A DNA stretch of 64,000 nt from Paenibacillus larvae subsp. larvae (GTDB taxonomy: Bacteria; Bacillota; Bacilli; Paenibacillales; NBRC-103111). The translations under genes were made by a program, and so were the position numbers. Below, in pieces: positions 2 to 54,621 of this stretch (position 1 is its first letter; each line of letters starts with the position of its first letter). The DNA lies in contig NZ_CP019687.1 of the NCBI RefSeq assembly GCF_002003265.1, forward strand, positions 3,787,501 to 3,851,500. The letters are read 5' to 3'. The notes under the pieces are model-generated. The model ran no database searches and was not told the DNA's origin. It saw nothing but the letters and a program-made list of their open reading frames with translations.

Positions 2-274
2 CGGATCTTGAATAATCGCGGAGAGATTCACCAAAAGTCAGATTCGCTGTCTTTATTTGAGTTTTCCCTAAATTCGTTTGCGGATGAAGGGATGAGATTG
101 CGGAATATTTCCCTGAATCTGCATGCGGAAGGGCCCCATCCTGATCACGTTATGACTGAATATGAGTCCAAGTTTCATGATAAAGGGATGAACATTTACC
201 GTACTGAGGTATTAATCGGCTCTGTCGTTTTACATGAACACGAACAAGCACTTCAAGAGAAAAAGCAGTCCTAG
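2..274 (+). CDS. Partial CDS: C-terminal part of an unrecognised protein
   Basis: The frame is open to the left edge of the window, so this is probably the end of a longer gene; a TTG at position 8 has no visible ribosome binding site. About 90 acidic, polar residues with no signal peptide, membrane segment or motif I recognise. The TAG stop at 272-274 overlaps, on the opposite strand, the TAG stop of the convergent glycosyltransferase, and both lie in one bidirectional hairpin terminator. No function proposed. Confidence 0.5.
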   Translation, partial: RILNNRGEIHQKSDSLSLFEFSLNSFADEGMRLRNISLNLHAEGPHPDHVMTEYESKFHDKGMNIYRTEVLIGSVVLHEHEQALQEKKQS

Positions 275-291
275 ATAGCAGGACTGCTTTT
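261..291. terminator. Bidirectional intrinsic terminator
   Basis: A perfect 12-bp stem, AAAAGCAGTCCT (261-272) and AGGACTGCTTTT (280-291), with a 7-nt loop. A-rich and T-rich flanks let it work in both directions. It contains the stop codons of both convergent genes. Confidence 0.85.
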
Positions 292-1412
292 GACTGGATC
301 CCCTAAAAGTTTCAGGACAATTTCCAACCACTGCAGGGGTGACTGCTTTAATGGCTTCATCCCGGATATTCTTGTTTGGCGTATCCATTCGCTGTTTTCG
401 GACAGGAGACGAAACCAATAATCAATCGTTGCTTCGGAGCGGATGATTTCTCCTAATCCCTGTTCTGCAAAATACCTCATATTCTCTTCTTCCTGTCCGG
501 GAATGGGTTCATAGAAAAGCATCGGCATTCCTTTTGCAAGGCCTTCGGTACAGGTTAACCCCCCGGGTTTGGTTAAAAGCAGGTCAGATACTTCCATTAG
601 CTTGTCCACCTCTTCGGTATAACCAAGGAGATGAATGTTTGCATGGTTAAAGCGGGTATCTTTTTTCATCTTGGCCAATGCTTTATGATTACTGCCGAGA
701 ACGAAAATAAGCTGAATCCGGTCTTTCCAGCTAAGCAGCCTGTTTAGCAAGGTTTCGTTTACGATAATTCCCCAGCCTCCTCCCATTATTAGAACGGTAG
801 GTTTTTCCTCAAGCCCGAATCTTCTTCTTATTTCGTTTTTATTTCCAGACTGGCTAAGGAAGGCAGGGCGAATCGGTATACCTGTTATTTCAATATTGTG
901 TTCCGGTACCCCCGGACTACCAGCTTATCTTTAACGTTTTGTGAAGATACCAGATATTTGTTAACTCCGGCGCTTATCCATGTGCCGTGGGCATCATAAT
1001 CCGTAATTACAGTGCACAGCGGTGTCTCCAAGCCGGACTGTTTCAGACGGGAAACTACCGCACTGGGAAAAGGATGGGTACAAATAATGGCGTCAGGATT
1101 CATTTCCTGAATAATTTTATTGGTTTGAGCATAGAAAATACGGTGTAATGCCAACTGCGTAAGCCCGCTCAGCGATTTTTTGTATAGCGAACGGTAAAGT
1201 GTTCCATACCATTTGGGCTGGGATGAAATGATTTTCCGGAATGCTGAAAAAACCCATCGGGCAAGGGTAGGGTGCAAACATGTCCCCAGTTCAAGCACTT
1301 TAGTCTGAATATCCGGGTGTGCTTGCATCAAATTTTCCGATAAAGCCTGGGCAGCTTGGGTATGCCCAGTTCCGAATCCTTCGGATAACAGCAATATTGT
1401 TCTTTTTTGCAA
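271..1412 (-). pseudogene. Frameshifted UgtP/MGDG-synthase-like glycosyltransferase (GT28 type)
   Basis: Two consecutive reading frames together give one protein of about 380 residues. The N-terminal part (1412-885) has the MGDG-synthase N-domain look, with SEGFGTGHTQAAQAL at the start and ICTHPFPSAVVSRL mid-way. The C-terminal part has the GGGWG loop and the sugar-nucleotide binding stretch LLLTKPGGLTCTEGLAKG followed by PIPGQEEENM. Relatives are membrane-associated processive diacylglycerol glucosyltransferases or related glycolipid enzymes. The frame breaks at a run of five G (plus-strand C 909-913): adding one G restores a continuous reading through VRGVPEHNIEITG. This is either a real loss-of-function allele or a homopolymer error. 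The gene is monocistronic; no promoter was identified with confidence. Confidence 0.8.
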
Positions 1413-43538: not shown

Positions 43539-44196
43539 TTATTTTTGAGGATCTATACTTGTAGGTACACTTGGCCAAACAAGTGTAATATAAATTCCAT
43601 ACCCCCAATCGTTATCATTGAGTATTTCGGCTCCCTTGTTGTATAGAAAATAACCTGCGGTTGCTATGCCTTCAATGATTCTTCCTGGGGCACCGGGCAT
43701 TTAGTAAGTATCAGTCCTATACATTCCCATTAGCACCCGATTTTAGAGAACGAACTATAGATTGTGTATCACTATGATTAAAATACAACATATAGCCCCA
43801 CCAAAAAATAAAATAATCGGTTGTATTGAGAGCGACGGTAGGGTTGCTCCTATCTGTTTGGCCGTTGTAGGTAACGGATAAATCAGAATGAATGATTGCG
43901 TTTCCATTTCTAACATCTTCATTGAGTAAATTCATCCAGGAGCTAATAGAATGAATAATTTCATCAGGTACAGATACATTTTTCTTATAGCTTTCATCCA
44001 ATAATAATGTGCCATCTGTTTGTAAATGTACATAAGGCTCCAGTTTCTTGCTGTATTGATAGACTATGTTATTTTCAAATAATGTGTCTGTTGATTGTTC
44101 TAAGTTTTCAGCAGTAGAAGCCAAGGAAGTGGTTGGGACTATTACTCCAGTAAGCAGGGAAGCAGAAAGAGCAATAACACACAGGCTCTTTTTCAT
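43539..44196 (-). pseudogene. Frameshifted copy of a secreted protein
   Basis: Close paralogue of the intact gene at 48936. The first 155 residues (signal peptide, VHLQTDGTLLLDESYKKNV, HSDLSVTYNGQTDR, FIFWWGYMLYFNHSDTQ) are open. After GANG the alignment needs at least two frame changes and a small deletion to continue into PGRIIEGIATAGYFLYNKGAE and ends DPQK with a TAA at 43539. AGGAGAGG ribosome binding site kept. It is followed (in its own direction upstream) by the relics of a DUF418 gene, just as the intact copy is. Confidence 0.85.
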
Positions 44197-48935: not shown

Positions 48936-49589
48936 TTACTTTTGAGAATATATGCTTCCAGGTGTACCTTGTAAAGGAAGTGAAATATAAATTCCATTTC
49001 CCCAATCAAGAGTACGAAGTTGTTTGGCTCCCATATTGTATAAAAAGCTGCCAGCCGAAGCTATAATATTTTCTGGGGCACCGTGCAGCAGTCTGGAAAT
49101 GATTACTCCTACAGTTTGTCCATTAGCGCCGGCATCTAAAGCACGGGCTATATATTGAGTATCGCTATGACTGAAATAGAGCATACAGCCCCACCAAAAG
49201 ATAGAATAATGGGTTGTATTAAGAGCAACGGCAGATTTAACCCTATCTGTTTGGCCGTTGTAGGTAACGGATAAATCAGAATGAATGACGGCATCTCCAT
49301 TTTTAACATCTTGATTAAGTAAATTCATCCAAAAGCTAATAGAATGAATAACTGCGTTCGGTACATAGACATTTTTCTTGTAGCTTTCATCCAGTAACAA
49401 TGTGCCATCTGATTGCAAATGTACATAAGGCTCCAGTTTCTTGCTGTATGGATAGACTATGTTACTGTCAGATACTATGTTGGTTGATTGTTCTGAGTTG
49501 GCGGGAGTAGAAGCCAGGGAAGCGGTTGGGGCCATTATTCCGGCGAACAGGGAAGCGGAAAGAGCGATAACAAAAAAATTTTTTTTCAT
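48936..49589 (-). CDS. Secreted protein of unknown function, intact copy
   Basis: 217 residues. The signal peptide is MKKNFFVIALSASLFAGIMA...SLA. The mature protein has VHLQSDGTLLLDESYKKNV, HSDLSVTYNGQTDR, FWWGCMLYFSHSDTQ, a hydrophobic glycine/alanine-rich segment (from VGVIISRLLHGAP to AGSFLYNMGA) and a C-terminus DWGNGIYISLPLQGTPGSIYSQ. Proteins with this layout are common in Bacillus and Paenibacillus but have no assigned role. AGGAGAGG ribosome binding site. It is followed upstream by a DUF418 membrane gene in the same direction, a pairing that is repeated in the degraded copy at 43539-44443. Confidence 0.75.
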   Translation of the reverse strand: MKKNFFVIALSASLFAGIMAPTASLASTPANSEQSTNIVSDSNIVYPYSKKLEPYVHLQSDGTLLLDESYKKNVYVPNAVIHSISFWMNLLNQDVKNGDAVIHSDLSVTYNGQTDRVKSAVALNTTHYSIFWWGCMLYFSHSDTQYIARALDAGANGQTVGVIISRLLHGAPENIIASAGSFLYNMGAKQLRTLDWGNGIYISLPLQGTPGSIYSQK

Positions 49590-51581: not shown

Positions 51582-51690
51582 TGGTCAAGACCCCATTTTG
51601 TAGACATTGAAAAAAGACCCTGGGCGGCAAGCTGGCGTCGGTACTCTGATCTTACCCCCGTCAAGTAGACAGCATTAAAACTGATAGGTC

Positions 51691-52579
51691 CTAAGCAACC
51701 TTAGTACGGTATTCCACCGGACTAAAGTTGCTTAATTTTGCCTGGAACCTGTCGTAATTATAAAACCGTATGTATTTATCTATAGCGGTTTTGAGTGCCT
51801 CTTCAGATTCAAAAGATTGTATGTATAGACACTCTGATTTGAAATGCCCAAAAAAACTCTCCGTACAGGCGTTATCCAAACAGTTCCCTTTCGAGACATA
51901 CTTGTTTTCATCTTGTATTGTTTCAGAAGTTTGCTAAAATGCCTGGAAGTATACTGATACCCCTGGTCACTATGGAGGAGGACACCTTTTGTTTTACGTA
52001 CTTTTCGGGCTTTCTCCAATGTATCAATCACTAGTTGTAAGTCATTTCTGGTACTTAGGTGGAAAGCAATGATTTCGTTGTTGAATAGATCGCATATAGC
52101 GGACAGGTATAGGTTTTTCTGTTTATATGGAATGTAAGTAATATCGGTGACCCATTTTTCATTTGGCCGGGTTGCATGGAAATCTCGGTTTAATACATTA
52201 TCGGAAACCACACATACTTCTTTTTTTCATAATACCTTTTCTTTTTGCGAATCTGAGCTTGTATCCCCATTTGTTTCATTAAACGATAAACCCTTTTGTG
52301 GTTTACGTGTATACCATACGTCTTCTTCAACCAAATTCGCATCCGTGGATATCCTAAGATGCCACGTAGGCGTTGATGTCTTCTACTATCTTTTCCTTTA
52401 AGAATTGATCCTCCAGTTGTTTACAAGAAGACGTACCACGTCTTCGCTGCCATTTGTAAAACCCACTTCTGGATACATGAGCGATTTCACAAAGCATTAA
52501 GATACTATAACCCTTGAATGAGAGTTGATCCACCACGGCATATTGAGCGATTTTGCTTACGTTTTTCTTCCCCTCCTTT
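51691..52579 (-). pseudogene. IS3-family transposase orfB, multiply frameshifted
   Basis: Pieces in different frames together give the rve/DDE transposase: GYSILMLCEIAHVSRSGFYKW, then the catalytic Asp in WVTDITYI, the second Asp in LLHSDQGYQYTS, and the Glu in NACTESFFGHFKSE, ending NFSPVEYRTKVA. At least three frame changes (near 52385, 52205 and 51885) inactivate it. Confidence 0.88.
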
Positions 52580-52874
52580 GTAGCGCCCAAAGCTTTTTTA
52601 AATATTCATTCTCCGCGCGCAATCTAATTAATTCCTCCTCAGGGCTCAGAGGGTTCTTTCTCGGCCTGCCTTTGTTCAAACCTTTTGATTTCCCACGTTT
52701 CTCTTCTAGCCCAGCCATACCTTCATTTTCATAATATTTAACCCAGCGTCTTATTGAAGCCTCTGGAATATTTAACTCTTTAGCAACGCGTTTATACCCT
52801 AAACCACATTCAAGATACATCTGAACTGCTTTATATTTCGATTCAGCTGAGTGAGTGCGTTGTATTCTTTTCAT
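52557..52874 (-). CDS. IS3-family transposase orfA
   Basis: About 105 residues from ATG 52874: helix-turn-helix KYKAVQMYLECGLGYKRVAKELNIPEASIRRWVKYYENEG and a leucine-zipper-like end (LSPEEELIRLRAENEYLKKLWAL). It binds the IS ends and normally continues by -1 frameshift into orfB, which is dead here. Confidence 0.85.
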   Translation of the reverse strand: MKRIQRTHSAESKYKAVQMYLECGLGYKRVAKELNIPEASIRRWVKYYENEGMAGLEEKRGKSKGLNKGRPRKNPLSPEEELIRLRAENEYLKKLWALQRRGRKT

Positions 52875-53032
52875 TAAAAAAATCCCCTCCAAGTTAACAG
52901 TAAGAGTCATTCTCTTAACTGTCTACCTAAAGGGGATAATATCAGAGTACCGACGCCAGCTTGCTGCCTAGGGTCTTTTTTAATGTCTACAAAATGGGGT
53001 CTTGACCAGCCAGCTACTGATGCTTTTTAATT

Positions 53033-53173
53033 TTATTCTCCTACTCCATTTTCAGCATAAGCAATAACTGATTGTTTGGCTGCTTCGTGGGTTTTATCTG
53101 GATTAATCCCATTTACCACATATAATAATGAAAACGTTAAGATAAGGAAAACCAAGTATTTTTTAATCTTCAC
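53033..53173 (-). CDS. Exported signalling propeptide (Phr/AloP-like)
   Basis: 46 residues starting with GTG: MKIKKYLVFLILTFSLLYVV, a typical short signal peptide, then a polar stretch NGINPDKTHEAAKQSVIA and the C-terminus YAENGVGE. AAAGGAGG (53184-53191) lies 10 nt upstream and inside the last codons of the receptor gene, so the two are coupled. Propeptides of this size, with an export signal and a C-terminal pheromone of 5-10 residues, accompany RRNPP receptors (Rap/Phr, NprR/NprX, AimR/AimP and, in Paenibacillus, AloR/AloP). The pheromone borders are not known. Confidence 0.75.
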   Translation of the reverse strand: MKIKKYLVFLILTFSLLYVVNGINPDKTHEAAKQSVIAYAENGVGE

Positions 53174-53176
53174 GGG

Positions 53177-54526
53177 TTAAATACCTCCTTTCAAAATATC
53201 CTTAAATTTGACTTTCTGGGAATCTGAAGCATACTCATCAAATTTGTTGAACTCCATGACGCACATTAATGATTCGCGATATTTATGGGCCCGAATGGAT
53301 AATGAAAGACAATATAAAATGGTTTCCAACCCTTCTGCAAAGCGCTTCCGATTAAATGCATAAATTGCTTTTTGATAATAAAACCTATAGTGTCTTTGGG
53401 CAAACACTACATTCTGCTGGGGTATTGAAGGATAGGCATCAGCGAAAAGTTCTAAGATGTGGTCTATATTTAATCTGTATGTATTCGCAGCCTCTAAAAT
53501 AACTAATAAACTACTTGGAATTCGTTTAGGATGTTCAACGAGGAAATTTACGAATTCGTCAAGAACACCAGTATTCCCTAACCATAATTCTATACAATAT
53601 CTATTGGCTTTAGCAAATAGGGAAAATTTATCGACCTCTTTTTTTCCTAAGTTGTCCAACAGTTTAAACCAGCTGAGGTCTTCATATCCTTCTATACATG
53701 CTTTTGCCTCTTCAAATCGACCTTGTTTAGATAAGGACATACCTTTCAATAAATATGCTTGTCCATAGTAAACAACAAGATGTCGTTCAGTTTCTACTGG
53801 TGGTTCCGATATTCTTTGACTATCGAGCTTTCTCACCACCTGTTGATATACAATATTCGATAGTATCCTTAGCTCTTCTGCAAATTGCTGAACCGTGGAC
53901 CATAATTGCAAACTATAACAAACATTTGCTAATTGCAACAAGGCATCTAGTTGAAAACCTTCAGGCAGTTTTTTTCGAAAGCCTCCAAAACGAACTACTG
54001 CTTTTAAGTTTTTATCAGCATCAGATCCAATACTAGCCCTAAAGACTCGATAGTGACTAATGACTAATCGGTCAGAGTGGTTGTACTTTTCTCCCTCGAT
54101 GACTTCTTCGTAAAAGGAAATGGATTCTTTAACATGACCACTTAGGTATAAATTCTCAGCTACAGAAAACAACAGTTCTGTATACTTGGGGTGATCTGCT
54201 AAGATATTGATACCCTCCATGACCAATTCCGTTTTTCCAAGTTCCGCGCAGCGGAATAAAAAAGATTCCATTCGGGGTCTGGCCACTCTACCTTTATAAA
54301 AACACTCCGCAAGATAATGCTCATAGTAGTATCCTTCAGGTAAGCCAAGTATTTCTGTTAGCGTATCTAATTGTTTCATGGTGATAGGCCGGAGCGATTT
54401 GCCTCGAAGGCAGGCGCTTAAATTCCCAATTTGAGGGCCACCCTTTTCTTCCAAGTGAGAAAGTGTACATCCGGTTTCAGCTATTGCCTTTTCAAGTTCA
54501 ACACGCAGCGAAATCCTGTTATCCAT
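53177..54526 (-). CDS. HTH-TPR peptide receptor/regulator of the RRNPP superfamily (AloR-like)
   Basis: 449 residues. Residues 1-65 form a helix-turn-helix (LEKAIAETGCTLSHLEEKGGPQIGNLSACLRGKSLRPITMKQLDTLTEILGLPEGYYYEHY). The rest is a chain of TPR-like helical pairs (LLFSVAENLYLSGHVKESISFYEEVI, ALLQLANVCYSLQLWSTVQQFAEEL, GQAYLLKGMSLSKQGRFEEAKACI, RFYYQKAIYAFNRKRFAEGLETIL). Such receptors bind a re-imported peptide and change DNA binding. Upstream are TTGTAT (54586-54581), 16 bp, TATTAT (54564-54559). No phage genes are near. Regulated genes are unknown. Confidence 0.8.
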   Translation of the reverse strand: MDNRISLRVELEKAIAETGCTLSHLEEKGGPQIGNLSACLRGKSLRPITMKQLDTLTEILGLPEGYYYEHYLAECFYKGRVARPRMESFLFRCAELGKTELVMEGINILADHPKYTELLFSVAENLYLSGHVKESISFYEEVIEGEKYNHSDRLVISHYRVFRASIGSDADKNLKAVVRFGGFRKKLPEGFQLDALLQLANVCYSLQLWSTVQQFAEELRILSNIVYQQVVRKLDSQRISEPPVETERHLVVYYGQAYLLKGMSLSKQGRFEEAKACIEGYEDLSWFKLLDNLGKKEVDKFSLFAKANRYCIELWLGNTGVLDEFVNFLVEHPKRIPSSLLVILEAANTYRLNIDHILELFADAYPSIPQQNVVFAQRHYRFYYQKAIYAFNRKRFAEGLETILYCLSLSIRAHKYRESLMCVMEFNKFDEYASDSQKVKFKDILKGGI

Positions 54527-54539
54527 TTTTTACTCCCCT

Positions 54540-54551
54540 TATGGTACCATA
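54540..54551. promoter_or_regulatory. Palindrome at the receptor transcription start
   Basis: TATGGTACCATA, a perfect 12-bp palindrome 8 bases downstream of the -10 element and 14 bases before the receptor ATG. A second TATGG half lies nearby. Suitable for autoregulation by the receptor. Confidence 0.5.
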
Positions 54552-54621
54552 TAATTCCATAATACCGCATTTAGGTTTTTATACAAAACCGTACAAAAAG
54601 AAACAGTAAAAATAGCCCAAT

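Follow-up and report, generated by a model that had tools for sequence, protein, structure and literature searches.

The gene pair described here, an aloR-type receptor gene followed by an aloP-type propeptide gene, adds a new member to the known AloR/AloP family (Voichek 2020). We put at roughly 88% the probability that in Paenibacillus larvae it serves as a quorum-sensing operon of the AloR/AloP kind and works as proposed below. The AloR/AloP reading holds because the sequence, the fold, the order of the genes and the pheromone motif agree, and the same agreement bears out the original prediction of an RRNPP-type, AloR/AloP-like pair. The pair lies in a 64,000-nucleotide stretch of the P. 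larvae genome that was analysed as a whole (the window; Table 1). In line with this species, an IS256 element located elsewhere in the genome is at least 99% identical to copies in all 9 matching plasmid records, which are all from Paenibacillus, the 8 listed being P. larvae, and in all 6 matching phage records, whose hosts are P. larvae. P. larvae is a honeybee pathogen and the cause of American foulbrood. In the open-licence part of PMC, no account of peptide quorum sensing in this species came up, and passages of PMC10075063, PMC9765709, PMC9341999, PMC3930689 and PMC13220807 do not describe this Alo system for P. larvae. Receptors of the species may be listed in the supplementary tables of PMC7425212. 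The system seems ordinary in mechanism and undescribed in this species. New here are a repertoire of about 17 alo loci with five intact receptors, a terminator cut by an IS3-type element, a promoter element confined to alo genes, and the lack of an adjoining spo0E.

Table 1. Features of the alo operon and of related loci (window positions unless marked otherwise).
Feature	Position	Strand	Remarks
IS3-family element in the terminator, outside the signalling system	51582..53008	minus	Bounded by 33-nt inverted repeats (97%)
Truncated Rho-independent terminator of the operon (left arm and loop)	53009..53028	minus	
aloP-type propeptide gene	53033..53173	minus	GTG-started ORF, 46 aa; homologues follow the paralogues and the plasmid copy
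Predicted mature pheromone ENGVGE, last six residues	53036..53053	minus	From the [HN]G position and the AloP13 SHGRGG precedent (passages of PMC7425212)
aloR-type receptor gene	53177..54526	minus	ATG-started ORF, 449 aa
XRE-like HTH of the receptor	residues ~5-60		
TPR superhelix of the receptor	residues ~83-449		
Shine-Dalgarno AAAGGAGG of the propeptide	53184..53191	minus	In the final codons of the receptor, 10 nt upstream of the GTG
Conserved promoter/operator element (putative) GGTATTATGGAATTATATGGTA	54545..54566	minus	19 nt before the receptor start
Broken receptors with an intact propeptide	genome 196285-197624, 212717-214048, 214944-216275, 2394367-2394900, 3675760-3677096		

The N-terminal helix-turn-helix and TPR-like repeats originally assigned to the receptor are supported by three lines of evidence. 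A family profile, built from 53 receptor relatives and run against PDB chains, matches the HTH chains of SinR and of restriction-modification C-proteins (E 0.0015-0.02, profile positions 5-74), while a single-sequence PDB search with the receptor gave nothing relevant. Pfam returns weak TPR matches (TPR_2, E 7.3e-6, below its cut-off). The AlphaFold2 model is confident and all-helical, with a mean pLDDT of 90.1 and a pTM of 0.83. Structural matches of this model include NprR, Rap, PlcR and AimR. However, the top ranks are held by LGN and designed TPR proteins, and many unrelated TPR proteins stand above the RRNPP structures; the fold therefore supports a TPR protein and not a particular function. 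Simple Nei-Gojobori estimates of dN/dS for the receptor are 0.204 against sister copy L002, 0.235 against the copy on the P. larvae plasmid pPLP3 and 0.141 against L004, indicating that the receptor is under purifying selection.

The propeptide has a basic N-terminus, followed by a hydrophobic signal region and a short tail, with hydrophobicity scored by a simple script rather than by a dedicated signal-peptide predictor. Its GTG start lies 3 nt past the receptor stop in the same reading frame. Since TAA CCC separates the two, the propeptide follows the receptor and does not overlap it. The original prediction was thus right in placing a GTG-started ORF at the 3' end of the receptor, with its ribosome-binding site in the last receptor codons, but the ORF is not hidden inside the receptor gene. 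The octamer YAENGVGE had been suggested as the pheromone. The family motif described below and the AloP13 precedent, the hexamer SHGRGG, which passages of PMC7425212 show to act on transcription, favour the hexamer ENGVGE instead, and this is likely to be the mature peptide. By the same method, propeptide dN/dS is 0.90 against L002, 0.65 against pPLP3 and 0.72 against L003 (45-46 codons), values that fit a fast-changing signal and give no demonstration of constraint. Three of the four tails of the window's own subclade carry EIG in place of [HN]G. In a model of a receptor-propeptide fusion, with the receptor TAA read as Q, the end of the tail has a pLDDT of about 38 and does not dock with confidence, which speaks neither for nor against its binding to the TPR groove.

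Receptor matches were found in 16 of the 104 genomes of the GTDB family, the window's own included. Named genomes hold 72 receptor-relative loci, mostly in Paenibacillus, Brevibacillus, Saccharibacillus, Fontibacillus and Gorillibacterium, with best identities of 43-44%. Passages of PMC10075063 define AloR13-type receptors by at least 30% identity over at least 80% of the length. The window receptor is 39% identical over residues 1-446 of its 449 to the receptor of P. brasilensis L090, an SHGRGG- and spo0E-linked stand-in for AloR13 itself, so that the comparison is with this relative. SHGRGG ends the propeptides of both L090 and Paenibacillus sp. BJ-4 L115, and in both a Spo0E-like gene lies just downstream (Pfam PF09388, E 7e-13 and 8e-14). 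Further features of AloR/AloP membership are also present in the window: an N-terminal HTH with a C-terminal TPR domain, a short downstream ORF with a hydrophobic signal sequence (46 aa, within the family range of 32-50 aa), and an SHGRGG-like C-terminal tail, ENGVGE.

Propeptide candidates were sought around receptor stops by position, charge and hydrophobicity, with the tail sequence left out of the selection. The 98 distinct receptor frames searched outside this genome comprise at least 430 codons each and come from other records; some may hold internal stops. A candidate was found at 60 of them, yielding 58 distinct propeptides. [HN]G occurs within the last 8 residues in 50 of the 58, compared with 7.5 on average and 17 at most when the last 20 residues are shuffled (2000 trials), and in 40 it starts five residues from the end. 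The excess is real, although its size is inflated because related propeptides are not independent. Among the eight propeptides without the motif, several look like false ORFs and one is the pPLP3 peptide, ending in EIGIGE. The motif can serve as a working rule when Alo pheromones are to be predicted. That homologous receptors keep a small ORF next to them, a point on which the original prediction had staked itself, is observed at these 60 frames; since the pairing of a receptor with a signal-peptide ORF also recurs at the paralogues and on the P. larvae plasmid, it is more than chance. Several relatives carry the motif twice within one propeptide (L006, L009/L013, L055/L123, L069, L071, L089 and L113; e.g. 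IHGSGQ, SHGDGY, SNGSGG).

The closest characterised system is Alo13 of P. polymyxa, as described in passages of PMC7425212. Both are operons in which a receptor with HTH and TPR domains precedes a propeptide with a signal peptide, and both propeptides end in a hexamer of the form x[HN]GxGx. Unlike Alo13, the window pair lacks a downstream spo0E, ends in ENGVGE and has a terminator cut by an IS element. The P. larvae receptors also stand apart: in a tree of 58 receptors the six from this species (five from this genome, one from pPLP3) group in a single clade (100/100 support), as would follow from an expansion within the lineage. Another close system is the copy on pPLP3 (NZ_CP020558, WP_083041778 and WP_158530606). 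Its receptor is 82% identical to the window's. The homologous block, 85.6% identical across window positions 53010-54612, takes in the promoter, both genes and part of the terminator and leaves out the neighbouring genes. It differs from the window copy in its tail, EIGIGE, its intact terminator and its plasmid location.

As we propose it, the pair would work as follows. Receptor and propeptide would be encoded, in this order, on one transcript; the propeptide would be exported by way of its signal peptide and then cleaved, and an oligopeptide permease would take the C-terminal hexamer ENGVGE back up (the genome encodes three OppA-type binding proteins). Bound in the TPR groove of AloR, the hexamer would alter whether the HTH binds DNA. 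If the sign of regulation is that of Alo13, AloR without peptide would activate its targets and the peptide would switch this activation off. The likeliest direct targets are the alo promoters, both that of the pair and those of its sister copies, since a conserved element is confined to them. Should the pair prove functional, a laboratory reporter strain would allow the synthetic peptide to be tried directly.

This element, GGTATTATGGAATTATATGGTA, has seven copies in the genome at up to three mismatches, all located 19-30 nt upstream of aloR paralogues, whereas a reversed-pattern control has none. A second element, that of the other paralogue group, has three copies, all 25-26 nt before aloR. 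Extended by two bases, the first element forms an imperfect palindrome (16 of 24 positions), a weak one in that 1.2% of random 75%-AT 24-mers do as well. A generic promoter scan did not list the aloR promoter, finding 6 sites where 11.3 were expected from shuffles. Upstream palindromes of relatives' receptors, judged by eye at 20 loci, have no element in common, and we therefore take the promoter element to be a feature of the P. larvae subclade. We read both elements as promoter-operators through which Alo receptors may regulate alo genes, which fits the lowering of other alo genes by AloP13 reported in passages of PMC7425212. Common descent could also account for the presence of the element at several paralogues; against this, the window and L004 keep 21 of its 22 bases while 69% of their synonymous sites differ.

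A census of the 4.29-Mb single-contig genome, in which 29 match rows were grouped by hand, gave about 17 alo loci. An uninterrupted full-length receptor is present at five of them (the window and genome positions 41921, 897336, 3130482 and 3734429), with predicted tails ENGVGE, EIGIGS, IHGFGE, VHGTGD and IHGSGQ, the last occurring twice in one propeptide. The other 12 are broken or fragmentary; as one assembly is the sole source, copies with a single lesion might be sequencing errors. Five loci, at 196 kb, 212.7 kb, 214.9 kb, 2394 kb and 3676 kb, combine a broken receptor with an intact propeptide, and these propeptides are possible orphan signals. No Spo0E-like gene adjoins any alo locus of this genome, which has four such genes in all, and Spo0E was rejected as a target for this reason. 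In P. polymyxa, according to passages of PMC7425212, six Alo systems are followed by a spo0E-like gene. The Alo output that has been studied best is thus missing here. A spo0E gene is optional and not defining for the family, so the assignment to AloR/AloP stands.

A broader scheme, which we consider rather doubtful, is that of a closed and decaying network, in which the receptors of the expanded alo loci would bind the alo-only element and so control each other instead of spo0E, while at least five loci with an intact propeptide and a broken receptor would send out signals that this receptor can no longer sense. The partly ruined repertoire and the alo-only element lend the system additional interest. 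Candidate targets elsewhere were also considered. Three of the secreted proteins encoded near some alo loci were scanned, and no family was found for them. Within the window, the regions 43717-44196 and 48936-49589 encode related proteins with signal-peptide-like starts (72% over the first 160 residues); the former holds a stop and the latter is intact, without a family match. The protein of 48936-49589 was rejected as an alo target, its only other genomic match being the one at about 43.7 kb, with none at other alo loci.

The downstream end of the operon has been rearranged. Sister copies L002 and L057 have complete terminator hairpins (-21.6 and -27.7 kcal/mol), while the window stretch shows no folding beyond that of shuffles, the place of the right arm being occupied by the IS3-family element. 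This element has rve/IS3 transposase matches in split reading frames. Because these frames run in the direction of the operon, readthrough into the element is possible. Four further matches of at least 570 bases (97-100%) are present in the genome, and none was found on plasmids. The ends of the element lack a target duplication and the matching flank is absent on the far side, so what remains is not a plain insertion with target duplication.

Such damage raises the question of whether the pair is a decaying remnant, once an Alo system, that has had its terminator cut, has lost its original target gene and no longer signals. The IS element within the terminator, the 12 broken or fragmentary loci among the 17 and the lack of an adjacent spo0E would agree with this. 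We nevertheless judge it unlikely, as no lesion affects either gene, the ribosome-binding site or the promoter element, and the receptor dN/dS is 0.14-0.24. With intact loci next to broken ones, and signals kept where receptors are lost, the genome offers a natural example of how a bacterium restricted to its host may lose part of its quorum-sensing repertoire.

PlcR/PapR, NprR/NprX, Rap/Phr and AimR/AimP share the architecture of the pair, appear among its structural matches and inform its mode of action by analogy; the solved chains of the PlcR, NprR, Rap and AimR families give no sequence match at the limits used. The presence of Rap and NprR among these structures would allow the receptor to be a Rap-like phosphatase-type or protein-binding sensor instead of a DNA-binding regulator. 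This is very unlikely, given the HTH with its profile matches to SinR-type DNA-binding chains and the action of the characterised AloR13 on transcription (passages of PMC7425212). Even less credible is that the small ORF, short, hydrophobic and 3' of an HTH gene as it is, encodes a toxin or leader peptide regulated by the HTH-TPR protein with no signalling involved: its C-terminal motif is common to the relatives, the proven pheromone SHGRGG among them, and the occurrence of the motif twice per propeptide in L055, L069, L071, L089 and L006 suits a released peptide better than a membrane toxin.

That the pair represents phage arbitrium (AimR/AimP), or a part of it that has been domesticated, is very improbable. 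AimR is among the structural matches (Z 13.7 and 13.3 at an rmsd of about 17 Å), and relatives occur on two Brevibacillus phages. Sequence, however, groups the receptor with AloR, the best PHROGs match has an E of 0.23, the PDB set, searched with the receptor and with the family profile, gives no AimR sequence match, and the pair is surrounded by IS elements, a gene for a DUF418 protein and a ribose operon. No phage genes were recognised around the pair, and a PADLOC search for anti-phage defence had no match. The absence of phage genes, originally advanced against arbitrium, does not set Alo apart from mobile elements, since Alo relatives occur on plasmids and phages (pPLP3, Brevibacillus plasmids and the two phages).

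Several relatives differ from the standard arrangement. Receptors for which no propeptide candidate was seen, many of them arranged in tandem with a complete pair, are found at L031, L032, L033, L038, L046, L053 and their relatives in the P. elgii/P. tyrfis group and related genomes, and are likely orphan receptors. In Brevibacillus phage SecTim467 (L058, 3682-5413) a relative of AloR (36%) directly follows a Spo0E gene, with no recognisable propeptide at this locus, making it a phage orphan receptor. Brevibacillus phage Emery (L059, 2971-4454) has a distant AloR-like gene (24-26%) about 1.2 kb after an agrB-like gene; next to it comes a signal-peptide ORF in which HGGIGW occurs two times, making this a phage-borne Alo-like system. 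Passages of PMC7425212 place Alo essentially all within the Paenibacillaceae; a pair with a 43% identical receptor and the tail EHGSTG is found outside this family in Caldalkalibacillus mannanilyticus (L068, labelled Bacillaceae).

The pheromone had been described as apparently new. It is not wholly so: in P. barengoltzii, P. timonensis, P. rubinfantis and P. phocaensis the propeptides end in ENGVGG, which has five of six residues in common with ENGVGE. The receptors of these systems are only about 38-41% identical to the window's and form a separate supported clade; the shared peptide is therefore likely convergent or an old retained state. Cross-talk between species is possible at these loci (L076, L105, L108 and L121).
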